Shown here in pieces: positions 34,755 through 58,480 of a stretch of 64,000 bases of DNA. The notes beneath the pieces are model-generated. The model saw only the letters and a program-made list of their open reading frames with translations. It was not told the DNA's origin and searched no databases. Source of the stretch: Mariniplasma anaerobium (GTDB taxonomy: Bacteria > Bacillota_I > Bacilli_A > Acholeplasmatales > Acholeplasmataceae); contig NZ_AP024412.1 of NCBI RefSeq assembly GCF_016865445.1, positions 992,001-1,056,000 on the forward strand. The letters run 5' to 3'. The position numbers and the translations under genes are program-made. Position 1 is the first letter of the stretch. Each line of letters opens with the position of its first letter.

Positions 34755-35425
34755 AATTCAATACGATTAAATAATAAATTTAGAGATTTATCATCATAAT
34801 ATTTACTTAAATGTTTCTTTGCTTGCATTAAATTTGGAGGTCTTTTATCTAAATTGTGTGTGTCTGTTGCAATAACATCAATTAAATTGTTTTTAATCAT
34901 CATTTTTACAGTTTTTTTATCTACACTTTTATCAAGGTTTAGAATTGATGATGCATTGGTTTGAATCAATGCTCCAGTTTCTCTAATTTTGATGATATCT
35001 TCCATTGATAAATACTGATATCTTTCTGTATGTGCAACTATAACTTGATAACCCATGTGCATTAAATCAAAACAAATATCTTCAATTGGAGTTTCAATTC
35101 TTGTTGGAAATTCCATTAATATATATTTATGTTTTCCAAAAGCATAATCATCATAATTTGTATTGAGATGACTTCTGTAATGAATTTCTCCTGCTAAATA
35201 AAGATTTATATCTAATTTAGATTGTTTAACTGCTTCTTTTAATGAGTTAAATGCAATGATTTGTTCTTCTTTTGAAGCTTTTGTAACTCTTGATTGAATA
35301 TGTGGTGTCAAAATGATATCTGTAACACCTTGCATAATTTCAATTTCAATCATTTTAAGTGATGTCTCTATATCTTGAGAGCCATCATCGACTTTCGGTA
35401 AAATATGAGTATGAATATCTATCAT
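34742..35425 (-). CDS. cpsB: Capsule-type tyrosine-protein phosphatase (PHP family, CpsB/YwqE)
   Basis: 227-residue metal-dependent PHP-domain phosphatase that dephosphorylates the partner BY-kinase. The metal-binding motif MIDIHTHILPKVDDGS is at the very N-terminus, followed by ILTPHIQSR, LAGEIHYR, VIVAHTERYQ and VIATDTHNLDKR, the set of His/Asp/Glu ligands expected for CpsB/CapC. The start overlaps the kinase gene by 4 bases (ATGA), so the two are translationally coupled. It is the last gene of the cpsC-cpsD-cpsB unit. Confidence 0.92.
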   Translation of the reverse strand: MIDIHTHILPKVDDGSQDIETSLKMIEIEIMQGVTDIILTPHIQSRVTKASKEEQIIAFNSLKEAVKQSKLDINLYLAGEIHYRSHLNTNYDDYAFGKHKYILMEFPTRIETPIEDICFDLMHMGYQVIVAHTERYQYLSMEDIIKIRETGALIQTNASSILNLDKSVDKKTVKMMIKNNLIDVIATDTHNLDKRPPNLMQAKKHLSKYYDDKSLNLLFNRIELTTF

Positions 35426-36186
35426 TTAATATCATCATCGTCATCATCATCAGAATAATAAGCATAATTTTGTCCATATCCATATACGCCTGATTTTAAA
35501 TCAACTTGTGTTAAAACAAGTCCAATAATATTAATTCCATGATTTTTAAGATTGCTAACTGCTTCTCTAACTACTGATTTCTTAGCTTTTCCTTGTGCAA
35601 CAACGAAAATGACACCATCAGCTAATTTAGAAATATAAAGTGCATCAGATACCGCAATAACTGGTGGAGTATCTAATAAAACATAATCATATTCTTCTTT
35701 TAATTGTGCAATTAAGTCTTGTAGTTTTTTAGCTTCTAAAACATTGATGATGGCAGATGTTTTTTCACCAGAAGTCATAAAATCAATACCTAAATCTTCT
35801 GAATGATTGATTGCTTTTTCTAAAGAAACCTTACCTGATAAATAATCAGTTAATCCATCTTTATTTGGAGAGCCAAAAACACGATTCATCTTTGGTTTTC
35901 TTAAATCAAGATCAATAACGATAACTTTTTTACCTCTTTGACCTAAAAGATAGGATAAATTAGATACAAATGTTGATTTACCTTCTGAAGGAAGAGTAGA
36001 TGTAAATTGAATAACTTTTAAATCTCCATCGACATTTGCGTAATCCAAATTGATAATAACTTTTTGGAAAGATTCTGTAACAAATGATAAAGGATCTTGT
36101 TTTGTAATGATATAGTCATATTTTTCAATTCGTTCACCATTAATTAAACGATCAATTGAAAAATTCTTTAACTTCTTTTTTGCCAT
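35422..36186 (-). CDS. cpsD: Bacterial tyrosine kinase (CpsD/YwqD type)
   Basis: 254-residue cytoplasmic BY-kinase. Walker A is TSTLPSEGKSTFVSN, Walker A' is VIVIDLDLRKP and Walker B is YDYVLLDTPP. The C-terminus carries a tyrosine cluster in VYGYGQNYAYYS followed by seven Asp residues, the expected autophosphorylation tail. The chosen ATG at 36186 is 9 bases after AAGGAGG and just inside the end of the cpsC gene; an upstream frame extension lacks an RBS. It works with CpsC (its membrane activator) and CpsB (phosphatase) to control export and chain length of a surface polysaccharide. Confidence 0.93.
   Translation of the reverse strand: MAKKKLKNFSIDRLINGERIEKYDYIITKQDPLSFVTESFQKVIINLDYANVDGDLKVIQFTSTLPSEGKSTFVSNLSYLLGQRGKKVIVIDLDLRKPKMNRVFGSPNKDGLTDYLSGKVSLEKAINHSEDLGIDFMTSGEKTSAIINVLEAKKLQDLIAQLKEEYDYVLLDTPPVIAVSDALYISKLADGVIFVVAQGKAKKSVVREAVSNLKNHGINIIGLVLTQVDLKSGVYGYGQNYAYYSDDDDDDDIK
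35431..35451 (-). repeat. Asp-codon triplet run at the end of cpsD
   Basis: Seven consecutive Asp codons (six GAT, one GAC) directly after the tyrosine cluster of the kinase. A 21-base triplet run is prone to length change, but it stays in frame. Confidence 0.8.
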
Positions 36187-36187
36187 G

Positions 36188-36898
36188 TTAGAAATCCTCC
36201 TTAACTTCAAATGTAGGAATGACTCCTAAAACTTGAATATCAAATGCAGCTTCAAGTTGTTCTTTTGTCTTATATGAGTTATTTAAAAACTCTTTAATAA
36301 ATACAAAACCAACGCCAATGATACCACCTAAAATAATACCTATTACTAAATATAAAGGTTTATTAGGAGATTCATAAAGACCAGGTTGTGCAAATGATGT
36401 TCTTGTGATTTTATCTTTTAAAGATGTGAAAGCTGGATTGCCATTTGCAATGTCAATTGCATTTTCAATAACTGAATTAACAATTTGTCTAGCAACCAAT
36501 GGATCTTCATCTATAAATTTAATATTAATAAAATAACTGGTTAAAGATGATGTAACAGTTAAATTAGATCTTAGATTACTTGCTGTTCTATCTAAATCTA
36601 AATCAAGGATAACTTCATCTAAGACAATATCTTTTGACATGTATTCAGCAATTGTAGTTAATAATTTTTGTGCAGTAGAATAATCAAATGATCCTTCAAC
36701 AGCTGTATCAACTTCTACTTGCACCATCACATCTGCATTGGATGCATATTTTGCATCAGCAATGACAAATGCATATACACCAGCAAGTATTGCAACTAGT
36801 GTTGTAAACGCAAATATTAAGACAATATTCTTTCTGATGATATGGTATAGGTCTACTAAACTTATTTCATTTTGTGTATCATTATTTTGTTCATTCAT
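36188..36898 (-). CDS. cpsC: Chain-length regulator / kinase activator (Wzz, CpsC/YwqC)
   Basis: 236-residue polysaccharide co-polymerase. A short cytoplasmic N-terminus (NEISLVDLYHIIRKN) leads to a membrane helix IVLIFAFTTLVAILAGVYAF, an extracellular Wzz domain (roughly residues 45-165) and a second helix LYLVIGIILGGIIGVGFVF with the Pro-rich lead PGLYESPNKP, ending in a short cytoplasmic tail that would activate CpsD. The ATG at 36898 is preferred because AAGGAGGG lies 11 bases upstream; an earlier in-frame start overlaps the promoter region. It is the first gene of the cpsCDB unit. Confidence 0.92.
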   Translation of the reverse strand: MNEQNNDTQNEISLVDLYHIIRKNIVLIFAFTTLVAILAGVYAFVIADAKYASNADVMVQVEVDTAVEGSFDYSTAQKLLTTIAEYMSKDIVLDEVILDLDLDRTASNLRSNLTVTSSLTSYFINIKFIDEDPLVARQIVNSVIENAIDIANGNPAFTSLKDKITRTSFAQPGLYESPNKPLYLVIGIILGGIIGVGFVFIKEFLNNSYKTKEQLEAAFDIQVLGVIPTFEVKEDF

Positions 36899-36942
36899 TT
36901 TATGTATAGCCCTCCTTGGATATGAAAATAACAACTATATAA

Positions 36943-40246: not shown

Positions 40247-42091
40247 TTAAAATGTTCCAAATGTTACATATTTTATAAATTGATTATAATAGATACATCC
40301 AAGAAATGGATCATCTTCATCTGCTAAATTTAAGATTCTATGATCTAATTCTTCAATTGAAGAAATATTGCCTTTTACATAATCTAATACCTTTATTTTA
40401 ATGTCTTCTAATCTTTGAATTAATCCACCAAAACGATAAGATTGAACTTCAAATCCATAAGGTTTATTCTCATAATGCCATTGATAGTTAAAATCTTTAT
40501 AAAATTGTTTAATCAAATCAATAGTTTCTGATAAATCGATAGTTGCTAGATCTAATAATCCTTCTTTATCTTTCTTGTGATAAAGTTCATATAATTTAAT
40601 ACTTAACGTTGATTTAATAGATAAAATAAATGATAAATCATAAAGTGTATTAAAGATATATACGTAAGGTGAGTCGATAGTTGTAAGAGGTTCAATTATA
40701 TCTTTAATATCTTGATATGATTTTTCATAATCTTTATGTAGTTTGATACGTGAATCACCTAATAATAGATCCTCAAATAATAGATATTTAGATGGATTGA
40801 CTGTTTTAATTTCTTTAGATGGATAAATTTGGTTTAATAAATCCAAACTCATCCATTGATTTTTACTATAACCAGTTAATCCATATAAAAATTTGTTTTC
40901 ATCAGTTAGATCATCTTCATAAAATGATTGTGAAATGAATAAAAGACTTGGAAGAATTGAAAACATCGATGCTTCTGCTCCATTATCTCCCCATGATGTG
41001 ACAACAAAATGATCTACATTAGCTTTTTTACATGCCTCAATGGCAGGTATACTTGCTTTTTCAGAGAAACCATTAAATGGTGCAAAGCCTACCCATTTCC
41101 AAGCCCCACCTGCAAATCCATAATTTGAGGTAAGTGTTTTAAGGGACGCAAATTTATCATCGTAATCTTTCTGATCTGTATGATAATAATCCCAATAGAT
41201 AAGTTCTACATCACTAGGAATCATATCTTTAATGTCATCAAAAGATGTGACACCTTTTGAAAAGTATGCTCCACCTTTTAAATGGAAAAACATATCAGCC
41301 CACATTGAAGCTTTGATATTATTTTTCTTGCATATATCTAAAACTTTATCTAAATGGTTTAACATAATATCCATTCTATTTTGATATCCGTTACGATTTA
41401 AGTATTTACCGAGACCTAATTGCCATGCTTCATCCATACCAATATTAATTTCATTTGTATGAAACATACTTTGAGCTGTAACTAACATCTTTTCAATCAG
41501 TTCATAAGTTTTAGGCTCATCAACAAGTAAAATGTCAGCTGTATCTAACACAGCATTATACTTAGCATGCTTAAATATAGCATTTAAGTGTGCTAGCGTT
41601 TGAATATATGGAATAACCTTGATATCAAAGCGTTTAGAAAAAGTGATTAAATCACTAATTTGAGAGGTTGTATAACGTCCTCTCATGTATCCAAACTCTT
41701 CTTGGTCATCAAGTTCAAATAAATCTTCTAAATAAAGCCCTATATATGTATAGCCCATCAAAGATAGGTTAACCACTTGTCTTTTCAGTGTATCTATTGT
41801 AGGCACAGCATTTCTTGCGCAATCTATCATATAACCTAAGGATTTTAATTTTCTTGATCTTTTAATATCATAATCCTTATGATTTTTATGACTTAAGATA
41901 TAACCAAGAGCTGCATAAATATCTCTTTGTAATCTATAATAAACCACATAAGTCTTATTAGTTTTAATAATTTGATAATCATAATCATCAAAAACTTTAA
42001 ATTCAATTGAATCTATGCCATCAAATTTAAATGCTGTATAAGCTTTGATGTTTTGAATTTCTTTAATAATCTCAATGCCTTTTATATTCAT
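40247..42091 (-). CDS. Family 20 glycoside hydrolase (beta-N-acetylhexosaminidase-like)
   Basis: 614-residue GH20-type enzyme. It has a small N-terminal alpha/beta domain (RDIYAALGYILSH), then a TIM barrel from about residue 85 (GYMIDCARNAVPTIDTLKRQ). The catalytic Asp-Glu pair is in NIGMDEAW (about 217-221), followed by MWADMFFHL and VTSWGDNGAE, matching GH20 active-site loops. It releases terminal GlcNAc or GalNAc. There is no signal peptide, so it is probably cytosolic and acts on imported or intracellular oligosaccharides. It precedes glnA but has no visible terminator of its own. RBS AAAGGAAAG. Confidence 0.83.
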   Translation of the reverse strand: MNIKGIEIIKEIQNIKAYTAFKFDGIDSIEFKVFDDYDYQIIKTNKTYVVYYRLQRDIYAALGYILSHKNHKDYDIKRSRKLKSLGYMIDCARNAVPTIDTLKRQVVNLSLMGYTYIGLYLEDLFELDDQEEFGYMRGRYTTSQISDLITFSKRFDIKVIPYIQTLAHLNAIFKHAKYNAVLDTADILLVDEPKTYELIEKMLVTAQSMFHTNEINIGMDEAWQLGLGKYLNRNGYQNRMDIMLNHLDKVLDICKKNNIKASMWADMFFHLKGGAYFSKGVTSFDDIKDMIPSDVELIYWDYYHTDQKDYDDKFASLKTLTSNYGFAGGAWKWVGFAPFNGFSEKASIPAIEACKKANVDHFVVTSWGDNGAEASMFSILPSLLFISQSFYEDDLTDENKFLYGLTGYSKNQWMSLDLLNQIYPSKEIKTVNPSKYLLFEDLLLGDSRIKLHKDYEKSYQDIKDIIEPLTTIDSPYVYIFNTLYDLSFILSIKSTLSIKLYELYHKKDKEGLLDLATIDLSETIDLIKQFYKDFNYQWHYENKPYGFEVQSYRFGGLIQRLEDIKIKVLDYVKGNISSIEELDHRILNLADEDDPFLGCIYYNQFIKYVTFGTF

Positions 42092-42727: not shown

Positions 42728-43504
42728 TCAATTAAGATTTAAGATATGTTCTTTGATAATATTTAAAGTTTGAGTATCCCTACAAACAAATAAATGTTGA
42801 TCCCCTAATTTATATGTTTCAAAATTCTCATTGACAACTAAAAGTCCTGCTTCTCTTACTAATAAGACTCCAGGACATAAATCCCAAAGGTTTGTAACAT
42901 TTGTATAAAATAGATTAAAGATAGACTCAGATGTCAAGGCAAGCTCTAGTCCAATAGATCCCAACATTCTTGTTTTATATTTATGCTCGATAGCTAAATC
43001 TAATATGGCTTTAAAATAAGACGTTTCTGACTGTTTATGACTAAGTCCTACCATAGAAATCATAAAATTTGATGGATCATGTTGATCACTTACATGATAT
43101 TTTTGATCATTTAAATAAGCACCTTTTCCTTTAATTGCATAATATGTTTTATTAAACTTAGGCGCATAAATATATGATAAAACAATATCTGCTTTATCAT
43201 ATAAAGCGATTTGAACGACATATAAGCCTAAATTAGATGCGTAATTACTAGTTCCGTCAATTGGATCGATTAACCAAGTGCGATCCTTTAAAACCGTTTT
43301 ATTGTGATATTCTTCAGAATGAATAAAATCATCAGAAAAATTGCTCTTAATCGCATCAATCAAATGTCTTTCAATATAAAGGTCTGTAGAGGTAACAATA
43401 TCTTGTTCACCTTTAAAAGATGTTTTTTTAACGGTAAGGATTGCATCTTCATAGATCTTTTTTGTAACATTTTTTATTAAGTTTAATTCTTTTTCATATG
43501 TCAT
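42728..43504 (-). CDS. Inositol monophosphatase family phosphatase
   Basis: About 258-residue Mg-dependent, Li-sensitive phosphatase family protein. Signature 1 WLIDPIDGTSNY (about residues 70-81) holds the metal-binding DxxDGT, with the upstream Glu in HSEEYH. Signature 2 is LWDLCPGVLLVREAGL near the C-terminus (WDLxPGxLLxxEAG). Substrate could be inositol phosphate, 3',5'-bisphosphate nucleotide (CysQ-like) or fructose-1,6-bisphosphate; motifs do not decide. Two nearby ATGs compete: that at 43504 has AAAGG about 11 bases upstream, that at 43513 only 2 bases, so 43504 is preferred with modest certainty. It follows the glycosyltransferase gene by 36 bases and may be in its operon. Confidence 0.87.
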   Translation of the reverse strand: MTYEKELNLIKNVTKKIYEDAILTVKKTSFKGEQDIVTSTDLYIERHLIDAIKSNFSDDFIHSEEYHNKTVLKDRTWLIDPIDGTSNYASNLGLYVVQIALYDKADIVLSYIYAPKFNKTYYAIKGKGAYLNDQKYHVSDQHDPSNFMISMVGLSHKQSETSYFKAILDLAIEHKYKTRMLGSIGLELALTSESIFNLFYTNVTNLWDLCPGVLLVREAGLLVVNENFETYKLGDQHLFVCRDTQTLNIIKEHILNLN

Positions 43505-43540
43505 ATGTATCATTGCCTTTCTTTTTTTCTTTAATACTTA

Positions 43541-46390
43541 TTATGATTTAAATCCTTTTCGCGTTTGCGTGCCCCATGTTCCACTTTCTCTTAAAGCACT
43601 AAAACTACTATAAACTCTATGCATACTAATTAATTGTCTATATCCAAAGTTTTCGAAAATAGCAAAAAACAGCATAACTATAGTTTCTCTTCTGTTCATC
43701 ATCTTCATTTCTTTTTCAGACATGAAAATTGAAGATAGAGAAATAACAACTCCAAATAAAATAGATGAGACAAATATGCCTAATATAATAGCTGGTGTTA
43801 ACAGTCCTAAAATCATAGCGATTGTTAGCATGATATAGCCTTGAGCTTCAAAAAATGGCCCTAAAAACTCAAAGACAAAGAAATATGGATATCCTATTAA
43901 TCCAATTTGTTTATATTTTGGATTAAATGATAATTTTCGATGATATGCTAATATATCAATGAGACCTCTTTGCCATCTGTTTCTTTGTTTTAAAAGTGTT
44001 TTAATATCACTAGGTAGTTCAGTATAACAATGAGCATTATAAACATAAGCGACACGGAAAGGATCTTTTTTCTCTAGTGCTTGTCTTGTCATTCTGACAA
44101 CAAGCTCCATATCTTCACCAACTGTATCTTTTTTAAGTTTACTACTACTTGTTAAATATCCACCTGTATCAATTAATGCTTGTTTATGGAAAAGTCCAAA
44201 GGCTCCAGAGATAATCATTAAACTTCTAAGTTGACTCCATCCAATACGTCCACTTGTAAAAGCTCTTAAATATTCAATGGTTTGAAATCTACAAACCATT
44301 TCACTAGGAATACCTCTTTTTTCTACTCTACCCTTATCAAATGTAAATCCATTAGCAGGATAGATATTGCCACCCATGGCAATATATGGTTTTGTATCAT
44401 CTAGCATGGTTGCTGCAAGTTTTAATAAAGCATCACCTTCCAAAATGCTATCTGCATCTATACCACAAACATAAGGTTGTTTACTTAAATTAATACCGAC
44501 ATTTAATGCATCAGCTTTACCACCATTTTGCTTATCAACAACAATTAAATTAGGAATATCTTTTGTATAATAGACACCTCTTATTTTTTTAGTGCCTAAA
44601 TGATTTAGATGAGCTGAATGTTTTCTTTCTAAATTAAAATGAGAAATCATAATGTTTAGCGTTTCATCTTTAGACCCATCATTCACAACAATAACCTCAT
44701 AAATAGGATATTTTAAATTTAATAGGCTAGTTATGCTATCAATGATATTCATTTCTTCATTATATGCTGGTGCGATTATAGATATCCCAGGCAATAGTTT
44801 TTCAGAAAATAATAATGTGTTCTTTCTTGTCTTTGAAAGATTTACTTGTTTTCTTGAATTAATTAAAGCCAAAATAAATAAAATCGCATAGATACTATTT
44901 ATACTTACAAAATAAAAAATTAAGTAGACATTTACATCAATCAAAAACCCTTCAACTATTTCTATTAAAGTTAAATCAACTATTGACACATTAAGTCTAA
45001 CTACATAAATAACAGGGAAAAGTAAAAACGAAAAAACAATCCATCGAATCATCCAATAGATCTTAGCCTTTTCAATAGGTGCTTTTTCTTTCTTTGGTAT
45101 AACCGGAGTAAATTTTTGAAGTCCCATTTGTTTTAAGACATCTGAATTTAAATATATTCTAAACTCTTTTGTCATCTCATCATCGCGACTCAAATGTAGT
45201 TTAATGATATTAAGCAAGTATGTTTCAATAGCTTGATCTCTATTATTATTTAAAAAATCAATGATTGATTCTGTAATATCTAGTTTAAGCATTCTATTGA
45301 TAATATCTTTTAATAGACTTTGTTGTGTTTCAAATATATCTAAAATGATATAGTCGATACGATCCGCAAATACTTTAATAAGCATTTCTTTTTGATAATG
45401 CTCTAATTCTGTAAATATTCTTAATAAATGATTCAAAAATGATCGATCATTTAAAACAATCTTAGATAACGTTTTAACCCTAATATCTTCTAATTCACCT
45501 TCATCATATCCTTCAATGATACGATTGATGCATGTCATACATGGTTCATAATAAAGTGATGATATTGCAAAAGATCTTACCATGATATCATCATGCTCCA
45601 AATAAGGTGGTGTTGATAATAATTCAGGTGTATGTTTAAATATATTTTGTAATATTTTTTCTTTAAGTTGCTCGTTGATTGTTTGATCATATGGATGATC
45701 TTCTATAATCCAAGAAAGTGTATTTTGCATATAATCAATTAAAAATGCATCTGAATGAAATGCTCCAATTCTAATTAAACCTAAAACGATTTGATATCTT
45801 AAATCATCTTTATAAGATACAAATGCATCATAGATGCGTTTATAATTATTACCTAACAAGATACATAAGCGATCTTGATATTCATCAGATGAATCAACTA
45901 ATGATTCAATAATAGAAGTCAAATATTGATCTTTTAATCCATAGCGCATATTGGCTACAATTCTAATTTTTACAGCTTCATTTTTTTCTTTTAAAAATCT
46001 TTGATATAAATGTTCATATGCATTTTCTGTACGAAGTTTCGATATATAATAGACTGCTATCTTTCTTTTATAAGAACTCCTTGAATTGATTGATCTAAAT
46101 TGTTTTTTTATAAATTTTGAATCCTTATAATCGTTTATAATATGTTCTCTTACGCTTGGTTCTAGATGTATTTGTTCATCAACATCAATTAATGCATCAA
46201 AAAAGAACCTTTTAGATACAGGAATTGATACATCTTCTTGATCTATATATTTTTTAAAGAGGTAATCTCTAGCTTTTTTTATTCTCAATGATTTTTTATC
46301 ATGTATTCTCTTTTGATTATATATCAAAATGATAAACAATAAAATGATTACACCAAAAGAGCTAGCAACTCCATAAATGATGTCTAGCAT
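43541..46390 (-). CDS. Membrane glycosyltransferase 2 with HEAT-like N-terminal half
   Basis: 949 residues. A membrane helix at about 5-23 is followed by about 400 residues of alpha-helical HEAT-like repeats, two to three helices (about 440-520), then a processive GT2 domain from about 533: IIAPAYNEEMNIIDS, VIVVNDGSKDETL (about 563), GGKADALNVGINLS, GIDADSILE (about 645), GEDMELVVRM and the Q/RxxRW motif KQRNRWQRG (about 801). Three to four C-terminal helices follow. This matches synthases of the PNAG/hyaluronan/BcsA group; UDP-GlcNAc is a likely donor because glmSMU are close by. It shares a TAATG stop-start overlap with the upstream pseudo-regulator. No RBS other than coupling is evident. 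Confidence 0.85.
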   Translation of the reverse strand: MLDIIYGVASSFGVIILLFIILIYNQKRIHDKKSLRIKKARDYLFKKYIDQEDVSIPVSKRFFFDALIDVDEQIHLEPSVREHIINDYKDSKFIKKQFRSINSRSSYKRKIAVYYISKLRTENAYEHLYQRFLKEKNEAVKIRIVANMRYGLKDQYLTSIIESLVDSSDEYQDRLCILLGNNYKRIYDAFVSYKDDLRYQIVLGLIRIGAFHSDAFLIDYMQNTLSWIIEDHPYDQTINEQLKEKILQNIFKHTPELLSTPPYLEHDDIMVRSFAISSLYYEPCMTCINRIIEGYDEGELEDIRVKTLSKIVLNDRSFLNHLLRIFTELEHYQKEMLIKVFADRIDYIILDIFETQQSLLKDIINRMLKLDITESIIDFLNNNRDQAIETYLLNIIKLHLSRDDEMTKEFRIYLNSDVLKQMGLQKFTPVIPKKEKAPIEKAKIYWMIRWIVFSFLLFPVIYVVRLNVSIVDLTLIEIVEGFLIDVNVYLIFYFVSINSIYAILFILALINSRKQVNLSKTRKNTLLFSEKLLPGISIIAPAYNEEMNIIDSITSLLNLKYPIYEVIVVNDGSKDETLNIMISHFNLERKHSAHLNHLGTKKIRGVYYTKDIPNLIVVDKQNGGKADALNVGINLSKQPYVCGIDADSILEGDALLKLAATMLDDTKPYIAMGGNIYPANGFTFDKGRVEKRGIPSEMVCRFQTIEYLRAFTSGRIGWSQLRSLMIISGAFGLFHKQALIDTGGYLTSSSKLKKDTVGEDMELVVRMTRQALEKKDPFRVAYVYNAHCYTELPSDIKTLLKQRNRWQRGLIDILAYHRKLSFNPKYKQIGLIGYPYFFVFEFLGPFFEAQGYIMLTIAMILGLLTPAIILGIFVSSILFGVVISLSSIFMSEKEMKMMNRRETIVMLFFAIFENFGYRQLISMHRVYSSFSALRESGTWGTQTRKGFKS

Positions 46391-48375
46391 TAAATTTTTA
46401 CCTTCTTATCTCTTATTCTTTTGATATGTCCAATCAATTCATCTGGAATAATTGGTTTTTGTAAGATTAAATCAATATCTAGTAAATTACATCTATTGAC
46501 GACATCTAAATTTTTAAGATGACTCACGATGATGAATGGAATATTTTTAAAAGTTAAAGATTCATTAATTTTTTGTTTAAGTTGAAATCCATCTAATTTA
46601 CTTAAATTAATCTCAGAAATGATAACATCTACATTATGTCTTTCTAGTTGTTCATATGCCTCATAGATATCACTGGCAATAATAAGTTTATAATGAATGC
46701 GATCAAAAATCTTAACCATAAGATTTTGATAGGTTTCATCTTCATCTACTAAAAGAATGATACCTTCTATATATGTATCTTCATCTGTGTTCATATCAAG
46801 GATTTGTCCCTTGCCTTTGAGTTTAGCTCTCTCTAATCTCATTTGTGAGAGTTCAATAAATTGATTAACTCTTTCATCTAAAGGATATTTCATGTTAAGT
46901 TCTTCAGTTGTTATGATACTGATAGAAACAGTTATATCTTCAATGAAAAGATCAGATTTTTTAACTTTCTTGCTTAAGTTTAAAGCAAAAGCTATCAAAT
47001 CTTTTTCTGCTATGTCATGTTTATAGACAAAAATACCTGGACCTGTTTGTTTAAATAGCATCGTATCTTCAGTTTTTATGCTATTCATTAAATGAACTAG
47101 GTTTCTTAAAGTTTCATTACCTTTATGTGTTCCATATTTTTTATTAATTGATAAGAGATTATCAATATGCACTAGCATAAGACCACGAACATGATTCTCT
47201 TCTAATGGCTTATCTAAATTATTTAATAAGTGACCAATCATAAATTTTTGATTATAAAGATCTGTGATTTCACATCGTAGTAGTTTATCAGTAGTTTGGC
47301 TTATTTTAGAAGATAACTCTAACACTTTTTCTTTTAAATGTGTCGTTTCTAAATTTAGATCTGCAATCTTTGTTTCTTGTTCAACAAAACTGGTTTTATA
47401 AATGGTTGGAAGTTTAATATTATATGTATTGTGATATTTTTTTACAATAGGTTCTAATATAGTTAACCATTCAAACCCTCTTTTTTGATAAATAGTATCA
47501 AAAAAACCATTCCATAATTTATATTCTTTTAAAATAGTAGATTCTATTTCAATGTGTGGATATAATTCTAAATGAATATCAGAATCTTTAAATACATCTA
47601 GGATATCAGATCTATGATATTTAGTTTCTAACCTTTTCAACATATGATTAATGATGGTTTCATAATTATATGAAACATTTTTATTGATTTTATATTCAAT
47701 GACTTGATTTGAATTATAAAAATCATAGGCTAAGACTTTAGCATATATATCAGGTATCATCGTTCTTTTTAAGAAACAACCAAGACGTGGATATATTTGA
47801 ATAAGATTATATTTTTTTAATTTCTTAATAGATTGTCTTACAAATTCAACACTTGGTAGAATCATTTCATGAAAATGATTAATTGACATGATCAATTCTT
47901 CTAGATTTCCATCTATACAATCAGTTTGAGAAAAAAGATGAGCAGAAAACAAAATGCCTTCTTCTTTAAAAACTGTCATAAAACACTCTGGAAAGGGCAA
48001 AAAAGGAATCGGTATAAAATCTAGAGTCAATTGATCAGATAGCTTTAATTGATAATCTAGAGATGCAATTGATGATAGGTTATTATCTAGCATATCATTT
48101 AAGTAAGGCACTCCTGATTCATTTGCGATAACTCTACCTTTAAATCCTGCTTTATTTAAATCATCAAGAGATGAAAGATTTAAATAATCATTTGATTGCA
48201 ATATGATATAAGATAAATTTGAAATCTTGATGTGTGATTTCAAAGCAGCAATGAGCAGGGGTGCATGATGTTTTGACCCTGGATCAATTAAAATAGATCC
48301 ACTTTCTCTATAGATGAGATATGCATAACGTTTAACTTTCTCTTCTAAAAGAATTGGTATAATTTTGTTTGCCAT
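46390..48375 (-). CDS. Triple-domain pseudo-regulator: MBL-like, GGDEF-like, receiver
   Basis: 661 residues, cytosolic. Residues about 1-250 resemble a metallo-beta-lactamase/ODP fold (SGSILIDPGSKHHAPLLIAAL), but the HxHxDH motif is replaced by LQSNDYLN. Residues about 370-520 resemble GGDEF (YNQKFMIGHLLNNLD, then VHIDNLLSINKKYG), with the signature changed to GPGIF and no RxxD inhibitory site. Residues about 536-660 are a receiver domain (ILLVDEDETY, then IISEINLSKLDGFQL) with Glu (about 587) where Asp is phosphorylated, and a usual Lys in LQKPI. All three active sites look lost, so it is probably a binding scaffold or sensor for the coupled synthase. The start at 48375 follows GAGGGG; an upstream ATG at 48387 has no RBS. 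Confidence 0.8.
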   Translation of the reverse strand: MANKIIPILLEEKVKRYAYLIYRESGSILIDPGSKHHAPLLIAALKSHIKISNLSYIILQSNDYLNLSSLDDLNKAGFKGRVIANESGVPYLNDMLDNNLSSIASLDYQLKLSDQLTLDFIPIPFLPFPECFMTVFKEEGILFSAHLFSQTDCIDGNLEELIMSINHFHEMILPSVEFVRQSIKKLKKYNLIQIYPRLGCFLKRTMIPDIYAKVLAYDFYNSNQVIEYKINKNVSYNYETIINHMLKRLETKYHRSDILDVFKDSDIHLELYPHIEIESTILKEYKLWNGFFDTIYQKRGFEWLTILEPIVKKYHNTYNIKLPTIYKTSFVEQETKIADLNLETTHLKEKVLELSSKISQTTDKLLRCEITDLYNQKFMIGHLLNNLDKPLEENHVRGLMLVHIDNLLSINKKYGTHKGNETLRNLVHLMNSIKTEDTMLFKQTGPGIFVYKHDIAEKDLIAFALNLSKKVKKSDLFIEDITVSISIITTEELNMKYPLDERVNQFIELSQMRLERAKLKGKGQILDMNTDEDTYIEGIILLVDEDETYQNLMVKIFDRIHYKLIIASDIYEAYEQLERHNVDVIISEINLSKLDGFQLKQKINESLTFKNIPFIIVSHLKNLDVVNRCNLLDIDLILQKPIIPDELIGHIKRIRDKKVKI

Positions 48376-48428
48376 AAAACCCCTCATTTCTTGTTTTATA
48401 TATAATATATAAATTATCTCTTTTTATC

Positions 48429-48531: not shown

Positions 48532-49917
48532 TTATTTTTCTGGTTTTGGTTTAGGTTTAATTAAGTTATTATAATAGTCTGCTTTATTGACTTGATGATT
48601 TCTTGCAATAGATAGTGATCCTTTAGGTATATTTTCTGTAACTGTAGATCCTGCAGCAATAAACACTTGATCTCCAACAGTTAATGGCGCAACCATGTTA
48701 ACATTACATCCAATAAAGACATCATCACCAATGATAGTTTTATGTTTTTTAACACCATCATAGTTTACGGTAATTGAGCCACATCCAAAGTTAACATTAG
48801 ATCCAACTTCAGCATCTCCTATATAAGATAAGTGAGCCGCTTTAGTTCCTGATCCTGTAGTAGAGTTTTTAACTTCTACAAAGTTACCTACTCTATTATG
48901 ATCTCCAATCACTGCATGATTTCTTAAATGAGCAAATGGACCTACGGTCGTATGAGCTCCAACTGTTGAATCATAAATTAATGAATGCTTAATTTCTGCA
49001 AATTCATCAATATTTCCATTATGGATTTCTGTATTAGGGCCAATAACTGCACCTTCTCTAATTGTTGACATACCAGTAATGGTTGTATTTGGATAAATTG
49101 TAACACCTGGTTCGATTAAGACATTATGTCCTATGGTAATCGTATTAGGTGAAACCATTTCTACACCATTTAACATATGGTTTTTATTAATTTCATCACG
49201 TAAATATCGCTCAGCGATACTTACAGAATATAAATCATTAACACCCATCATTTGATAAGCTGATCTTACAACAAATGAACCTATTTTATAGTCATGTTTC
49301 ATAAGTGAAACGATATCAGTTAAATAGTATTCACCTTTTCGTTCATTTTTTGGTATACTTCTTAATATTTTAAACAAAATTTGATTGTCAATAACGTAAA
49401 CTCCAGAGTTTACTTCTTTAATTGCTTTTTGTTCACCAGTGCAATCTTTATCTTCAACGATTGCAGATATCACACCATATTTATCACGAACAATACGGCC
49501 ATAAGATTTAGGATTATCATAAACCATAGAAACAACTGTTAAATCATTACCCATTTCATCATGGGCTTTTAAAAGTTTATCAGTTAGTTTGATTTCCATT
49601 AAAGGCATATCACCAGGAAGAATAAACGTAACTCCTTCTTTATCAGCTAAAATACTTTCAGCTGATAGTGCAGCATGACCTGTGCCTAATTGTTCAACTT
49701 GTTCAGCATATTGAACACGATTGCCTAAAATATCCATTAATATTTCTTTTTTGTGACCTACGACTACAACTGTTTCATTAATGGTAGTCTTTTCAAGTTT
49801 TTCTACGATGTATTCAATCATTGGTTTTTTTAAAATTGGATATGCACATTTTGGCATATCTGTTTTCATTCTAGTTCCCTTACCAGCTGCAAGTACTAAT
49901 CCATATGTTTTACGCAT
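48532..49917 (-). CDS. glmU: GlmU: GlcN-1-P acetyltransferase / GlcNAc-1-P uridylyltransferase
   Basis: 461-residue bifunctional enzyme making UDP-GlcNAc from GlcN-1-P, acetyl-CoA and UTP. The N-terminal pyrophosphorylase domain has GLVLAAGKGTRMKTDMPK and QLGTGHAALSA. The C-terminal left-handed beta-helix (from about residue 250) has repeated hexapeptides (TIGHNVLIEPGVTIYPN) and the acetyltransferase signature VGNFVEVKNSTTG, KAAHLSYIGDAEVG, NFGCGSITVNYDG. The ATG at 49917 is 9 bases after GGAG; earlier TTG/ATG codons sit too close. It overlaps the end of glmM by 8 bases. It is the last gene of glmS-glmM-glmU. Confidence 0.96.
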   Translation of the reverse strand: MRKTYGLVLAAGKGTRMKTDMPKCAYPILKKPMIEYIVEKLEKTTINETVVVVGHKKEILMDILGNRVQYAEQVEQLGTGHAALSAESILADKEGVTFILPGDMPLMEIKLTDKLLKAHDEMGNDLTVVSMVYDNPKSYGRIVRDKYGVISAIVEDKDCTGEQKAIKEVNSGVYVIDNQILFKILRSIPKNERKGEYYLTDIVSLMKHDYKIGSFVVRSAYQMMGVNDLYSVSIAERYLRDEINKNHMLNGVEMVSPNTITIGHNVLIEPGVTIYPNTTITGMSTIREGAVIGPNTEIHNGNIDEFAEIKHSLIYDSTVGAHTTVGPFAHLRNHAVIGDHNRVGNFVEVKNSTTGSGTKAAHLSYIGDAEVGSNVNFGCGSITVNYDGVKKHKTIIGDDVFIGCNVNMVAPLTVGDQVFIAAGSTVTENIPKGSLSIARNHQVNKADYYNNLIKPKPKPEK

Positions 49918-51220
49918 CAACATCAACTCCAAATCCTTTTATTTTTTTAACTATTTTATCAATGGTATTTCTCATCACACTTTCATCTGAATGAGAAACC
50001 GTAACTCTTATAAGACTTTCAGTGCCTGATGGTCTAACTAAAAGTAGACTATCAGTTCCAAGTGTTTTTTTAATGTTTTCAAGAAACTTTTTCATTTCAT
50101 CTGTTTTTAATATCGATTTATCAACATCTTTGATATTGATTAATTGATATGGATATAAATTAAGACTTGATGTTAGTTCTTTTAAAGTTTTATTTTCTTC
50201 AGCCATAATAGATAATAAATAGATTGCGACTAATAGACCATCACCAGTGTGAAGTAAGTGTCTCATGATGATATGTCCTGAATTTTCTCCACCAATGACA
50301 TAATCATTAGTTGTCAATTCTAGAGATACATATTTATCACCTACATCTGTTAGAGATACTTCAATCTCTTTTTCTTTTAATGCTTTAAGTATACCAGGAT
50401 TACTCATCTTTGTTAAAACAACATGATTATGTCTTAATAATTGTTTTTTCTTTAAGTATGATGAAATTATGAAAATAATTTCATCTCCATCATAGATTTT
50501 ATCTTGATCACAAATTAAAAGTCGATCGCCATCTCCATCAAAACTAAATCCAACATCAAGATGATATTCTTTAACATACTCATGAATATACTCCATGTGA
50601 GTTGATCCGCAATTTTTATTGATGTTTAGTCCGTCAGGGTTATTTCCTATTTGAATGGCATCAGGGGCATATTTATTAAATAGTTTATGAGCTATTTTGA
50701 AGTTTGCGCCATTTGCAGAATCATATGCTATTTTTAAGTTTGTTTTTTTTACACTAAATTGATTGTAAAGTTTTAAATAAGTAGATTCAAAATCACTAGA
50801 TAGTTTGAAATCTCCAAATGCTTTGATTTCTAGTTTAGGATTATCAATAAAAGATTCAATAATTTCTTCTTCTTTTTCAGTCGTCTTAAAGCCTTTGTTA
50901 AAGACTTTAATACCATTATCTGTATAAGGGTTATGTGAGGCTGTTACCATGACACCAATGATTGATTTTTCTTTTGAGAAGTAAGCAACCATAGGCGTTG
51001 AACATACGCCTGCAAAAGAAACATTTAATCCTTCGGATAATGCACCAGCAGCAATCATATGCGCAAGCATTGGTGATGATTGTCTTGTATCATATCCGAT
51101 AACGACTTCATTGATATCTATCGCATATTTCAAACCTTGTCCTAGTCGATATGCTAGTCCAGCATTTAAATGCTCAAATGCTTTACCTCTTATGCCATCT
51201 GTTCCAAAATATTTTCCCAT
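49910..51220 (-). CDS. glmM: Phosphoglucosamine mutase
   Basis: 436-residue alpha-D-phosphohexomutase converting GlcN-6-P to GlcN-1-P. The N-terminus MGKYFGTDGIRGKAF is diagnostic for GlmM. The catalytic phospho-Ser is in VTASHNPYTDNGIK (about residue 95), the metal-binding loop is FSFDGDGDRLLI (about 237) and the phosphate-binding loop is VRPSGTESLIRV near the end. It starts 10 bases after the glmS stop and overlaps glmU, giving a compact three-step pathway. RBS AAAGGAG. Confidence 0.97.
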   Translation of the reverse strand: MGKYFGTDGIRGKAFEHLNAGLAYRLGQGLKYAIDINEVVIGYDTRQSSPMLAHMIAAGALSEGLNVSFAGVCSTPMVAYFSKEKSIIGVMVTASHNPYTDNGIKVFNKGFKTTEKEEEIIESFIDNPKLEIKAFGDFKLSSDFESTYLKLYNQFSVKKTNLKIAYDSANGANFKIAHKLFNKYAPDAIQIGNNPDGLNINKNCGSTHMEYIHEYVKEYHLDVGFSFDGDGDRLLICDQDKIYDGDEIIFIISSYLKKKQLLRHNHVVLTKMSNPGILKALKEKEIEVSLTDVGDKYVSLELTTNDYVIGGENSGHIIMRHLLHTGDGLLVAIYLLSIMAEENKTLKELTSSLNLYPYQLINIKDVDKSILKTDEMKKFLENIKKTLGTDSLLLVRPSGTESLIRVTVSHSDESVMRNTIDKIVKKIKGFGVDVDA

Positions 51221-51230
51221 AAAAGCTCCT

Positions 51231-53015
51231 TTATTCTACTGTAACACTCTTTGCTAAGTTTCTAGGTTTATCTATATCATTACCACGTTCTAAGGCTGCA
51301 TAGTATGCAATAAGTTGTGTAGGCACAACCATAACCATAGGAGTTAAGAGTGGATGTACATCTTTTAAGATGATATCGTCACTCTCTTGAGATGTATTAG
51401 CTAAAGATATAATCATCGTGGTTGCACCACGAGAAATGACTTCATTTAAATTAGATCTAGTATTCTTTGATATTTCTTTGCTTGAAATAAGTGCAATAAC
51501 AGGAGTTCCTTCTTCTATTAATGCAATGGTTCCATGCTTTAATTCACCAGCAGCAAATCCTTCTGTTTGAATATATGATATCTCTTTTAACTTTAAGGCA
51601 GCTTCTAGTGATGTATAGTAATCAATGGTTCTACCAATATAAAAACAATTTCTCTTAGTTATTTTATCATGAACTAAAGACGATATATCTTGAGTAGCTA
51701 AAAAGTTTTCTATGGATAATGCAACCTTTGTTAACTCTTTTATCAAATCAATATTTTGATCTGATAAGGTGTTACATAAGATTGATAATACCGCAACTTG
51801 TGCTACATATGCTTTTGTAGAAGCAACTGCAATTTCTGGACCTGCAAAGAGTTCAAGAAAATAGTTAGATTCTCTAGCTAATGTTGAAGTTTTAACATTG
51901 GTAATAGTTAGAGTCTTATAATTTAGTTTTTGAGTTTTTAATAAACATGCTCTTAAATCTGCAGTTTCTCCAGATTGAGAGATCATTAAAAAGAATGGTT
52001 TAGCAGTTAATAGTGGTGTATGATAAGCAAATTCTGATGCGATATGCACTTCTGCTGGAATATGAGTTAATTCTTCAAATAAGTACTTACCTACATAACC
52101 TGCATGCATTGATGTACCAGCAGCAAGTATATAGATTCTATCAGATGCTTTAATATCTTTTAGAATATCTGCTGATATATTAATTTTATCATGATTAAAG
52201 TAGTTTTGAACAATTCTGCGAACAACTGATGGTTGTTCGTATATTTCTTTAATCATATAATGCTGATACTCACCCATATCTGTAGAAGATTCATCTAGAT
52301 CAATTTCTAGATAAATTAAAGGTTGTAATTCATGATTTAGATTATATAATTTAACACTATCAGATTCTGCCACCACAAATGTATGATCAGCAAGAGCAAT
52401 ATATTGATCTGCATAACCTAAAAGAGCCATTAAGTCAGAAGCTATGGTGATACCATCATCACCCTTGCCTAAAACTAATGGAGATTTATTTTTAGCTGCA
52501 TATATTGTATCTGGTGTTTGTGTATCAATAACCAGAAGAGCATAAGAGCCTTCTAATAGTTTTAAAGTGGTTAGGATAGCATTTTCTACGTTTAATTGTT
52601 TTGTGAAGGTTTCTATGAGTTGTGCAATCACTTCAGTATCAGTTTCAGAATAGAAAAATGAATCAGATAAATATTGTGATTTAAGTTCTTCGTTATTTTC
52701 TATGACACCATTATGAACAATGATGAATCTTTTAGATTGTGAGTAATGAGGATGTGCGTTTTCTTTAGTGACTTTGCCATGAGTTGCCCAACGTGTGTGG
52801 CCAATACCTATATTTGATTTTAGTGTGTTTTTTGTCAAATCTATAAGCTTTTGGACACGTCCAAAATCCTTGTAGATATCAAAGGACCTGAATTTGGAAT
52901 TAAATAAAGAAATACCTGCAGAATCATATCCGCGGTATTCTAATTTAGTGAGTCCACTAAGGACTACTTCTTTTGCGTCTTTTTTATTTCCAATGAAACC
53001 TACAATTCCACACAT
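51231..53015 (-). CDS. glmS: Glutamine--fructose-6-phosphate aminotransferase (isomerizing)
   Basis: 594-residue first enzyme of the hexosamine pathway. The start MCGIVGFIGN (ATG 53015, GGAGG 8 bases upstream) places the nucleophile Cys2, which is exposed by removal of Met; a frame extension of 5 codons is rejected. The glutaminase domain has GHTRWATHG and HNGVIENNEEL; the two SIS domains include AAGTSMHAGYVGK, SQSGETADLRACL and the C-terminal PRNLAKSVTVE, the conserved end of GlmS. A -10-like TATAAT is present at 53044-53049. I looked for the glmS ribozyme in the leader and see no sign of it. Confidence 0.97.
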   Translation of the reverse strand: MCGIVGFIGNKKDAKEVVLSGLTKLEYRGYDSAGISLFNSKFRSFDIYKDFGRVQKLIDLTKNTLKSNIGIGHTRWATHGKVTKENAHPHYSQSKRFIIVHNGVIENNEELKSQYLSDSFFYSETDTEVIAQLIETFTKQLNVENAILTTLKLLEGSYALLVIDTQTPDTIYAAKNKSPLVLGKGDDGITIASDLMALLGYADQYIALADHTFVVAESDSVKLYNLNHELQPLIYLEIDLDESSTDMGEYQHYMIKEIYEQPSVVRRIVQNYFNHDKINISADILKDIKASDRIYILAAGTSMHAGYVGKYLFEELTHIPAEVHIASEFAYHTPLLTAKPFFLMISQSGETADLRACLLKTQKLNYKTLTITNVKTSTLARESNYFLELFAGPEIAVASTKAYVAQVAVLSILCNTLSDQNIDLIKELTKVALSIENFLATQDISSLVHDKITKRNCFYIGRTIDYYTSLEAALKLKEISYIQTEGFAAGELKHGTIALIEEGTPVIALISSKEISKNTRSNLNEVISRGATTMIISLANTSQESDDIILKDVHPLLTPMVMVVPTQLIAYYAALERGNDIDKPRNLAKSVTVE

Positions 53016-53780
53016 AAGTGATACCTCCAAATAAGTTAATACTATTATACAATAAAAAGCACTTCTTTTCTAATTCAAAATTTTAAATATAGAGATTTTA
53101 CAAGAAAATTATTATTTATACCTATATAGATATGTAATAAAAAGAAACTAGAATCAATTTTTTAATTCTAGCTCTTTAAATTAATTATGTAATAAAATAT
53201 AATAAAAGATAATTTATGTTCAAAAAGAGATATTATTAAGGGGTTTATCATATATTAGTAGTGATTTCATATAAATTTTTTTGTTTCGAACTGTCCATTA
53301 TTTGACATTACGACATTAAAAACTGTCTATTTATTAAATCTTATACATATGATGGTCCAAAAAGTAGATTTTTTTGATGAGATAGACAGTCAATTCTTAA
53401 TCTAATTAAGAGTAATTCTCACTATTTTATATACAAAAGATGTAAAGTTTATATTTATGTTGCAGTCTTAGTGAAATAACTGTGGGTTTTGCTGAAACCC
53501 TTCATTTTGAACATAAATTTCGCGTGTTGACCCTACACTATGAAGTGTCATTTTTGAGATTTTTTTCTTATGTTAAAACATCATTTAACATCTCAAATAA
53601 GGGCATAAGTCCCGTTAATTATATCAAAAGTTTAAATCCCCTCGACTCCATGCCCTGACCCTTTAGTTTGAACTGTCGGTCCTTATGAAACCAATGTCAA
53701 TTATTATAAAAGTCATCACTTTTGACTTAACCCTTTTTAAAGTCTCAAAGCACTTGAAATTCTTAAAATTATTCATATAG
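53016..53780. other. Gene-free 765-bp region with multiple dyads
   Basis: No coding gene is supportable here. Contents: a probable glmS promoter (53044), a minus-strand terminator (53140-53171), a 9-bp inverted repeat ACTGTCTAT/ATAGACAGT (53322-53330, 53382-53390), a direct repeat GAACTGTC (53288-53295, 53670-53677), the hairpin GGGTTT-TGCTG-AAACCC (53484-53500), the dyad ATGTTAAA/TTTAACAT (53570-53591) and a tRNA/tmRNA-3'-end-like string (53630-53650). The part from 53480 to 53680 is visibly less AT-rich than its surroundings. It separates glmSMU from the polysaccharide cluster and may be a decayed mobile element, an integration scar or a structured RNA. Confidence 0.55.
53140..53171 (-). 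terminator. Terminator in the glmS upstream region
   Basis: Stem CTAGAAT / ATTCTAG with a 10-base loop followed by TTTCTTTTT on the minus strand. It would end any transcript coming from the polysaccharide cluster before the glmS promoter. Confidence 0.65.
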
Positions 53781-55064
53781 TTACATCTTGATGTTTATTT
53801 TCATAAATCTGTTAATTCTATAATAATATTGAGTTATTGAAATACTTAGAAGGTAAATAATAAGAAACGGGTATGTTGTTAATGGATTTCCAAATAAACC
53901 GTATAATAACCATAAAGACTGGCAATAAAAGCTTATATATAAATATATGTTATAATTCACTCCATTATTAGCATTAGATGCAAGTAATTTCAGTGTTCTA
54001 TAATAAAAAGTGAAAAGCAAAACTATTATGATAAGAGAGAAAAATATTCCCATTTCGAACAATAATTGTATATAGATATTGTGAATCTGTGATATCTCAA
54101 CTGTGAAAACATTATCTAAATAAATAGGGGCACTATATAAACCATGGCCAAAAAATATTTTATCTTGTATCAAATTAAAGGCTTCAGCATATAAGTTTAA
54201 CCTGTTACTAGACAATTCATTTAGAATATCATAATCATAATTATTAAAAGAAAAATATAGAATTATAGAAAATAAGACAATAAAAACAGCTCCAAATATC
54301 ATAAAAGAAGATGCTGCTGGATGAAGATTCTTTCTCTTTCTATTGCTAATACTTATAAATATCATTATTAGAGAAGCTACGATAGAAGCAATATAAATTG
54401 ATCTTTTGCCAGTGTAAAACAATGCAATAATAAATATAATGATAAGGAAATAGTTTAAGGTATTTCTTTTATTTGTTATAATACGAGACAATATAATACC
54501 TATACCGAAAGAGATAAAAAAACTATTAAATGAAATTTGACTTGTTAAGCCACTATGCTCATTATTATAATATATCAATTTCCTAACTATTTCCTGGCTA
54601 TAATCACTAAATAGTGGAATAATAAAATTTTCGTAACTGACTGGAAAGAACACACTAAAATAAGTTATTGCAACAAATATAATTAATATTATATAAGAGT
54701 ACTTAATGAAATTATAATGCCATTTTTTGCTATATGATAAGGAAAATGAGATACTAATAAATGTTATAAAATATATAAAGAATTCATAAGTTTGTTTATA
54801 AGTTATTAGACGAAGTGCTGAAATAAAGAACATTAAAAATACAAGAAACACTATGGATATATCCATAAGCATTAGTTTGTTTTTATTCAACACTAAACTT
54901 ATTATTGATAAAATTAATATAATCAGATATGACTCTATCTCGCCAACGAATCTTATGTTTATCGTCGAAAAAAAGATACTTATTACTAAAAATAATGGGA
55001 TGATTTTAGTAAGTAATCTGTTTTGTTTTTTGATTGAATTATTTATTAATTTAAAAGATTCCAT
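53781..55064 (-). CDS. Wzy-like polysaccharide polymerase
   Basis: 427-residue integral membrane protein with about 11-12 helices and the O-antigen polymerase/ligase layout: a conserved TGKRSIYIASIVASL segment (Arg following the helix) and then an extracellular loop with LIQDKIFFGHGLYS and EISQIHNIYIQLLFEMGI, the typical H-N-x-Y/L motif of Wzy_C proteins. It would polymerise the flipped lipid-linked repeat unit outside the membrane. It is the last gene of the rml cluster on this strand. RBS GGGAG 9 bases before the ATG. Codon use is very AT-rich. Confidence 0.82.
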   Translation of the reverse strand: MESFKLINNSIKKQNRLLTKIIPLFLVISIFFSTINIRFVGEIESYLIILILSIISLVLNKNKLMLMDISIVFLVFLMFFISALRLITYKQTYEFFIYFITFISISFSLSYSKKWHYNFIKYSYIILIIFVAITYFSVFFPVSYENFIIPLFSDYSQEIVRKLIYYNNEHSGLTSQISFNSFFISFGIGIILSRIITNKRNTLNYFLIIIFIIALFYTGKRSIYIASIVASLIMIFISISNRKRKNLHPAASSFMIFGAVFIVLFSIILYFSFNNYDYDILNELSSNRLNLYAEAFNLIQDKIFFGHGLYSAPIYLDNVFTVEISQIHNIYIQLLFEMGIFFSLIIIVLLFTFYYRTLKLLASNANNGVNYNIYLYISFYCQSLWLLYGLFGNPLTTYPFLIIYLLSISITQYYYRINRFMKINIKM

Positions 55065-55166
55065 TATACTGCTCCCATCAAAAATATATATCCGAAATAT
55101 TCTTTATTACATATGTCTAGATTTTCATGCCAAACCAGTTTATTTAATCTTAAGTCAAACATTTTA

Positions 55167-56186
55167 TCATTTATTTCTATAATATTCATCCATAAATCTT
55201 AAATATTCTCCATTTTCGATGTTATTTATCCAATCTTGATTTTGTATATTCCATCTTATTGTTTGGATAATACCAGATTCAAAGTTATACTTTGCTTTCC
55301 ATCCAAGCTCATTTTCTATTTTAGAAGGATCTATAGCGTATCGCATATCATGACCTTTTCTATCAGTGACAAATTTAATTAGTGATTCTGGCTTACTTAA
55401 CTCATTAAGTATAGTTTTAACTACTTCCAAGTTTGTTCTTTCATTATGTCCGCCTATGTTATATACATTACCATCTTTACCTTTATGAATAATTAAATCA
55501 ATGGCAACACAATGATCATGGACATGTAGCCAGTCTCTAACATTTTCACCGGTACCATAAACAGGTAATGATTCATCGGCTAAGGCTTTTTTAATCATCA
55601 AAGGGATTAGTTTTTCCGGAAAATGATATGGTCCATAATTGTTTGAGCATCTTGAGATAGTAATTGGCAAGTTAAAGGTTCTGTAATATGCTTGTACTAA
55701 TAAATCAGCTGCTGCTTTTGACGCAGAATATGGACTTGAGGTGTGAATTGGTGTATCTTCAGTAAAAAATAAATCAGGTCTATCTAGAGGTAAATCGCCA
55801 TAAACTTCATCAGTAGATACTTGATGATATCTTTTTACTTCATTTTTTAGCGATGCATCCATCAATACTTGTGTACCTAAAATATTAGTTTTCAAAAACA
55901 CTTCAGGATTTTCGATTGAACGATCGACATGAGATTCAGCAGCAAAATTTACTACTATATCAAATGCCTCTTTTTTAAATAAATCATTAATAAATAATCT
56001 ATCTGTAATATCACCTTTAACAAACTTGAAACTTATATTTTCCATGATTGGTTCTAGTGTTTGTAAATTACCAGCATATGTAAGTGCATCTAACGCAATT
56101 ATCTCATAGTTTGGATATTTATCTACCATATAGTGACAAAAATTGCCACCAATAAACCCTGCTGCTCCAGTAACTAATACTTTCAT
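55167..56186 (-). CDS. rmlB: dTDP-glucose 4,6-dehydratase
   Basis: 339-residue extended SDR, second step of dTDP-L-rhamnose synthesis. NAD-binding GAAGFIGGNF (residues 7-16), catalytic DE in STDEVYGDL, the Tyr/Lys pair in YSASKAAAD, and the substrate motifs NNYGPYHFPEKLIPLMI and NVRDWLHVHDHC are all present. It follows rmlD with no gap (stop immediately followed by ATG). The gene order rmlA-rmlC-rmlD-rmlB gives the full pathway. Confidence 0.97.
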   Translation of the reverse strand: MKVLVTGAAGFIGGNFCHYMVDKYPNYEIIALDALTYAGNLQTLEPIMENISFKFVKGDITDRLFINDLFKKEAFDIVVNFAAESHVDRSIENPEVFLKTNILGTQVLMDASLKNEVKRYHQVSTDEVYGDLPLDRPDLFFTEDTPIHTSSPYSASKAAADLLVQAYYRTFNLPITISRCSNNYGPYHFPEKLIPLMIKKALADESLPVYGTGENVRDWLHVHDHCVAIDLIIHKGKDGNVYNIGGHNERTNLEVVKTILNELSKPESLIKFVTDRKGHDMRYAIDPSKIENELGWKAKYNFESGIIQTIRWNIQNQDWINNIENGEYLRFMDEYYRNK

Positions 56187-58464: not shown

Positions 58465-58480
58465 TATTTCGTTCTCCTTA

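Follow-up and report, generated by a model that had tools for sequence, protein, structure and literature searches.

A regulator with three domains lacking their active sites is paired with a HEAT-GT2 synthase in Mariniplasma anaerobium: a putative exopolysaccharide system

The DNA analysed here, called the window, is a stretch of 64,000 nucleotides from Mariniplasma anaerobium (contig NZ_AP024412.1, positions 992,001 to 1,056,000) and contains two genes of the minus strand, on which all features of the pair given below also lie. The first (46390..48375) encodes a soluble regulatory subunit, hereafter REG, of about 661 amino acids and without transmembrane segments; the second (43541..46390) encodes a HEAT-GT2 synthase of 949 amino acids, whose start overlaps the stop of REG by one base (TAATG). 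Both open reading frames and their stop-start overlap had been pointed out in a preliminary description of this DNA, and both are present. The longest frame of REG (46390-48387, minus strand) has 665 residues from an ATG at 48387; the ATG at 48375 (MANKI...) appears to be the likelier start, with GAGGGG a few bases 5' of it. Residue numbers of REG follow the 665-residue frame.

REG comprises an ODP domain, a GGDEF domain and a receiver, all three above the Pfam cut-off and all three devoid of an active site, as the preliminary description had proposed. The ODP domain, a flavodiiron-type metallo-beta-lactamase (47785..48330, residues 20-201; PF19583, 2.3e-20), finds its structural matches in the PDB, when the AlphaFold model is used, among ODP proteins (6r9n, 6qrq) and flavodiiron proteins. 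In alignment with FprA, a metal-binding His is replaced by Pro and an Asp by His, and the family alignment indicates that the first metal motif and the other ODP ligands are also gone. A helical linker (47278..47523) follows, in which the model places a long helix, probably a coiled coil, at residues 328-370. The degenerate GGDEF domain (46807..47268, residues 374-527; PF00990, 3.8e-11) matches GGDEF cyclases structurally in the AlphaFold model, reads GPGIF (47029-47043, residues 449-453) in place of the signature, and has TEDT where active cyclases have the RGTD of the I-site; no RxxD is conserved at this site among the REG homologues of the family alignment. In the receiver (46423..46758, residues 544-655; PF00072, 2.3e-15), alignment places Glu592 (46612-46614) at the phospho-Asp position, with the pocket otherwise kept (the acidic pair Asp548 and Asp550, Ser622, and Lys644). 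Intact catalytic residues were looked for with profiles and alignments, and none was found at the three sites. Cyclase activity of REG was consequently rejected on the loss of the GGDEF signature, and redox sensing by its ODP domain on the loss of the metal ligands.

The loss of these sites seems to be conserved rather than random, since GPG and ISEINL (which contains Glu592) are invariant across the 17 REG sequences of the Acholeplasmataceae group, and no other part of the protein is as well conserved as the receiver (mean identity of 64%, vs 45% for the GGDEF and 37% for the ODP domain). Asp409, Asn415, and Gly423, in the nucleotide-facing half of the GGDEF domain, are also invariant despite the lost signature loop. 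One reading is that the degenerate domain has retained its nucleotide pocket as a sensor of GTP, or of some other purine nucleotide, so that synthase activity would follow the cell's supply of energy or precursors. However, the GGDEF loop that would hold the phosphates has been replaced by GPG and the three residues may be kept for folding, so this role is considered improbable.

The synthase is composed of an N-terminal membrane anchor (46325..46381, from hydropathy), helical repeats, two or three membrane helices, a GT2 catalytic domain (43964..44791, from Pfam, NCBIfam and invariant columns) and further C-terminal transmembrane helices (43544..43900, from the AlphaFold model and hydropathy). 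The repeats form a HEAT-type alpha-solenoid of about 400 residues (45086..46303), assigned from the AlphaFold model, its PDB matches and hhalign: the N-terminal 435 residues have zero Pfam matches in the protein of the window, while this part is modelled as a solenoid with pLDDT mostly of 80-90 and with ARM/HEAT proteins as top PDB matches. The large HEAT-like half noted earlier is thus borne out by the model, and also by homologous separate genes that match HEAT_2 (see below). The GT2 core is poorly modelled (pLDDT of about 30, with an alignment of 17 sequences); its sequence agrees with the processive type previously assigned to it (Pfam 7.7e-22), the NDGS, DADS, GED, and QRNRW motifs being intact and invariant in the homologue alignment. 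The nearest NCBIfam family is TIGR03937 (PgaC/IcaA) with 118 bits, well below its curated cut-off of 422.3 bits, as compared with 35 bits for CelA; XrtG-associated and NodC families are also matched. Neither a PgaD/IcaD partner nor a PgaB/IcaB deacetylase was found among the scanned genes near the pair. Mollicutes are rich in glycolipids, and a weak phmmer match of the GT2 to ceramide glucosyltransferase could suggest that the product is a glycolipid of the membrane or a short glycan on a lipid carrier instead of an exported polymer. Such a product seems very improbable in view of QRNRW, of the matches to the PgaC/IcaA, XrtG-associated and NodC families, and of the genes for YaiO outer-membrane barrels and for secreted hydrolase-like proteins that adjoin unfused homologues.

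Directly upstream of the pair lie glmU, glmM, and glmS (48532..53030, minus strand), from which an amino-sugar polymer had been deduced. The adjacency is real in the window, but as a clue to the polymer it was rejected as weak, because it is not conserved (it occurs in only four genomes, the window's and those of three relatives) and because the genes are set inside a capsule locus. Indeed, the two arms of a Wzx/Wzy-type locus flank glmSMU and the pair, one with Wzz, a tyrosine-kinase-like ATPase and CpsB (window 34742-36934) and the other with Wzy, rmlABCD-like, flippase-like, pyruvyl transferase and GT1 genes (window 53781-63457), and the glm genes are more likely part of this locus. An amino-sugar polymer nonetheless seems plausible on other grounds, namely the PgaC/IcaA family as nearest relative and the presence of glmS and a glmU-like gene in two HEAT-GT2 loci of Brevibacillus. 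On the other side of the pair are an inositol monophosphatase family gene (42728..43513, minus strand), kept in the nearest relative and not in others, and a GH20C beta-N-acetylhexosaminidase without signal peptide (40247..42091, minus strand), whose place is not conserved. The flanks in other relatives include Sua5, a topoisomerase, an ABC transporter, an aminotransferase and other genes.

That the pair belongs to the surrounding capsule locus and helps to build the capsule would fit the two arms just described, and Wzz/kinase genes are close to the pair in three relatives. On the contrary, the pair has other neighbours in most relatives, in spirochaetes and in clostridia, and its GT2 belongs with the processive synthases; a part in the capsule is accordingly judged quite improbable. 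Three further features of the window may be mentioned: an EAL-domain protein with a membrane N-terminus (16903-18525), about 25 kb from the pair; a single open reading frame of 4680 amino acids (20592-34634) directly below the CpsB gene; and a nitroreductase-family protein of 335 amino acids (58481-59488), which follows the rml genes within the capsule locus. The host had been described as apparently wall-less, which agrees with the single Mur-ligase-like gene found in its genome.

The synthase occurs in about 20 of the 101 genomes of the window's order, with identities of 44-86%, and the same genomes, about 20, carry REG as well; in a sample of the class, REG is present in 23 of 296 genomes. 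The neighbourhood survey of these relatives places the two genes side by side wherever both are on one contig, usually with an overlap of 1-4 bases, the exceptions being two draft genomes in which contig ends alone part them. The distribution across relatives is patchy. To judge from this gene order, the pair is a conserved unit and its pairing is not due to chance. In one relative the synthase frame is broken by a stop between its N- and C-terminal parts (L054:8488-11313), and in another locus (L049) the REG frame is likewise broken. A hexosamine polymer of A. laidlawii is known from the old literature, and a link to it was considered and rejected, the pair being absent from the genome taken as A. 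laidlawii in a search that had no positive control of its own, with a single-protein search of the same genomes that did recover relatives.

A scan for homologues over 84,980 species genomes, of which the best 80 matches were taken, provides evidence on the origin of the synthase. Among the matches listed, full-length fused homologues come from Acholeplasmataceae, Izemoplasmatales, other mollicute-related MAGs, some Bacillota and Spirochaetota, and they are followed in rank by GT2 proteins of about 470 amino acids from many phyla. Among the same matches, 41 loci have a gene of HEAT size (300-480 amino acids) directly upstream of the unfused GT2. The three separate upstream genes that were scanned all encode HEAT proteins (HEAT_2) with an N-terminal membrane helix. 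In hhalign, the separate HEAT family matches the fused half at 97.7% and E 1.8e-12, and hmmsearch with this family matched all the fused proteins tested, a homology that may be partly generic repeat similarity. In the GT2 tree, in which one far outlier serves only as root, the fused proteins form one clade (support 97/100) beside the unfused clades. The synthase is the product of a single fusion between a membrane-anchored HEAT gene and a PgaC-like GT2 gene.

The gene that precedes the HEAT gene also seems to belong to this arrangement. Among the matches listed, it contains a receiver in 23 of 40 unfused loci, 22 times at the C-terminus, as compared with 31 of 423 other open reading frames (Fisher p 6e-14); in 17 of the 40 loci, HEAT is not immediately preceded by a receiver gene, and in 10 none lies within three genes. 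For the fused synthases listed, a receiver gene is found upstream at all 24 genome-contig loci. Since the receiver gene, HEAT, and GT2 are consecutive in the unfused loci, the order of the window, from the receiver end of REG through HEAT to GT2, copies theirs. The HEAT-GT2 module itself extends, among the matches listed, across Bacillota, Spirochaetota, Acidobacteriota, Bacteroidota, Pseudomonadota and others. A contig assigned by binning to an archaeon of the Methanomicrobia also carries receiver, HEAT and GT2 genes (L115:6496-9410), by horizontal transfer or misbinning. At two loci (L107 and L084), YaiO-family outer-membrane barrel genes adjoin HEAT-GT2, and the barrel is likely the export pore of the polymer in diderms.

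Some relatives of REG retain sites that are lost in the window. Among the matches listed, Glu occupies the phospho-Asp site in 22 of 25 receivers of the fused family vs 2 of 22 receivers adjoining unfused HEAT-GT2, 20 of which keep Asp; the three fused-family receivers with Asp are those of two sisters and of a basal Treponema, all of them in short GGDEF-receiver regulators. The fold of the REG N-terminal domain is that of the ODP diiron oxygen sensor of T. denticola and T. maritima (6qnm, 6qrq, 6r9n), whose metal ligands are gone in the window's lineage but apparently present in several spirochaete and clostridial REG homologues (HQDPD, LHFPG, SSDLFG, and PQHG). Regulators of the ODP-GGDEF-receiver type with most of the diiron ligands kept were noted at six loci (L068, L072, L075, L077, L078, and L083), and such proteins are candidates for sensing oxygen or NO in connection with an exopolysaccharide synthase. 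As for the GGDEF domain, an intact GGEEF cyclase is part of the receiver protein just upstream of HEAT at five Bacillaceae loci, and in five genomes of Acholeplasmataceae an intact diguanylate cyclase is encoded immediately after the pair; c-di-GMP enzymes thus seem to travel repeatedly with the module. Because some relatives keep the ODP ligands, the GGDEF signature, or the phospho-Asp, REG is taken to descend from a working sensor whose sites decayed secondarily. A widespread two-gene HEAT and GT2 module that was fused once, the decay of REG from intact ancestors, and the loss of the I-site are points that go beyond the preliminary description.

The pair would work in a manner similar to other exopolysaccharide systems that consist of a synthase plus a regulator. 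In B. subtilis, ydaKM places a degenerate GGDEF protein beside a GT2; judged by its description, this system is set apart from the window's pair in that it does not have the ODP, receiver, and HEAT parts. The PNAG synthase PgaC/IcaA shares its GT2 core and motifs with the synthase of the window, for which self-export through the membrane part is likewise assumed; the differences are the fused HEAT half, the absence of PgaD/IcaD or PgaB beside the window's synthase, and a regulator that is soluble and of three domains. In Listeria, PssE is a degenerate GGDEF protein, encoded with the pssA-E synthase genes and needed for the exopolysaccharide synthase, whose I-site binds c-di-GMP (PMC4125290). 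It resembles REG as a degenerate GGDEF protein beside a synthase in a Bacillota genome, but keeps RxxD and does not have the ODP and receiver domains. BcsE of E. coli is a soluble regulator whose receiver and GGDEF domains are both degenerate, the latter with its I-site kept; its N-terminal domain is RecA-like by fold prediction, and it acts on cellulose synthase through BcsQ/BcsF (PMC7439463, PMC8461298). REG resembles it in both degenerate domains and in having the N-terminal domain as the least conserved part, and differs in the lost I-site and in the nature of the N-terminal domain, no Pfam kinship being seen. Finally, NfrB/DgcJ of E. coli combines a processive GT2 synthase of a putative amino-sugar polymer with a dedicated diguanylate cyclase that controls it; there, an MshEN domain that forms one protein with the GT2 is the binding site of c-di-GMP, and HEAT and a receiver partner are absent (PMC8669469). 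The difference from known degenerate-GGDEF pairs that had been stated before is therefore confirmed and extended, as REG adds the ODP and receiver domains and lacks the I-site.

These parallels raise the question of whether REG is itself a c-di-GMP receptor of the PssE, PelD, or BcsE type, in which binding at the degenerate GGDEF domain turns the synthase on. A profile search of the genome gave 19 matches to GGDEF, 6 to EAL and none to PilZ, so some other receptor of c-di-GMP would be needed; moreover, intact cyclases adjoin the pair in relatives, and exopolysaccharide synthases are regulated by degenerate GGDEF proteins in Listeria (PssE) and in E. coli (BcsE) (PMC4125290, PMC7439463). REG shares with this class the non-catalytic GGDEF signature and the co-encoding with a synthase. 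Nevertheless, the RxxD used by PssE, PelD, and BcsE is gone (RGTD has become TEDT), which places REG outside the definition of these receptors and makes such a role at the I-site unlikely.

The reading preferred here is that the pair constitutes a PgaC-like exopolysaccharide synthase gated by docking of the receiver on the HEAT adaptor, in this lineage fixed in a kinase-independent form, a proposal to which we give an even chance. From a nucleotide sugar, for which UDP-GlcNAc or a related compound is the likeliest candidate, the 949-residue subunit would build a polymer, and the chain would pass through the synthase's own membrane helices, while the cytosolic HEAT solenoid would serve as the docking platform for REG. 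The ancestral control was probably a phosphorylated receiver that bound HEAT and thereby switched the synthase, since in the unfused loci an ordinary receiver is often found at the end of the gene next before HEAT. Given the Glu at the phosphorylation site and the loss of the GGDEF catalytic site, the I-site, and the ODP ligands, REG has probably become a lasting partner that needs no kinase and whose task would be to fold the synthase, to position it, or to maintain its active state, and Glu592 perhaps keeps the receiver in the active shape. This residue may also mark the mere loss of phosphorylation and not a locked-on state. The domains, the lost sites, the intact GT2 motifs, the strict pairing, the single fusion and the gene order can be read from the sequences; the polymer, the docking and the locked state are inferred, the contact between HEAT and receiver from gene order and fusion. 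Any remaining control could reside in expression, in c-di-GMP acting elsewhere on the complex, or in a nucleotide bound in the old GGDEF pocket.

In a wider sense, and with a probability clearly short of even, receiver, HEAT, and GT2 may represent a widespread class of exopolysaccharide synthases in which docking is a post-translational switch, and mollicutes may have frozen this switch by a Glu that mimics the phosphate, with HEAT fused to the synthase. No description of a HEAT-GT2 synthase, of an ODP-GGDEF regulator of exopolysaccharide, or of this wider class was found in the literature searched, a set that leaves most subscription journals outside. If true, kinases would directly control polymer synthesis through a receiver that acts on a HEAT adaptor, in a field where control of exopolysaccharide synthases is known mainly through c-di-GMP. 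The decay series in metal ligands, GGDEF signature, and phospho-Asp would provide natural variants for the role of each sensor domain. In the window's host, a mollicute without a cell wall, a capsule locus exists alongside a separate synthase, and a large c-di-GMP network is devoid of a PilZ protein, the common receptor.

Another family recurs in the vicinity of the module. Exported proteins of 700-1117 amino acids adjoin HEAT-GT2 in Bacillota and Sphaerochaeta (L075, L087, L088, L103, L124, and others); they gave no Pfam match and nothing in a search of the PDB by sequence, and their KGVNIG and V-EFG motifs suggest a TIM-barrel glycosidase with extra domains. Among 61 relatives, the family is present in 4 of the 13 that have the pair vs 1 of the 48 that do not (Fisher 0.006, a value that is indicative only because the genomes are related). 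In the genome of the window, one member lies away from the pair (L143:13874-15988, corresponding to G000:C1:688374-690488).
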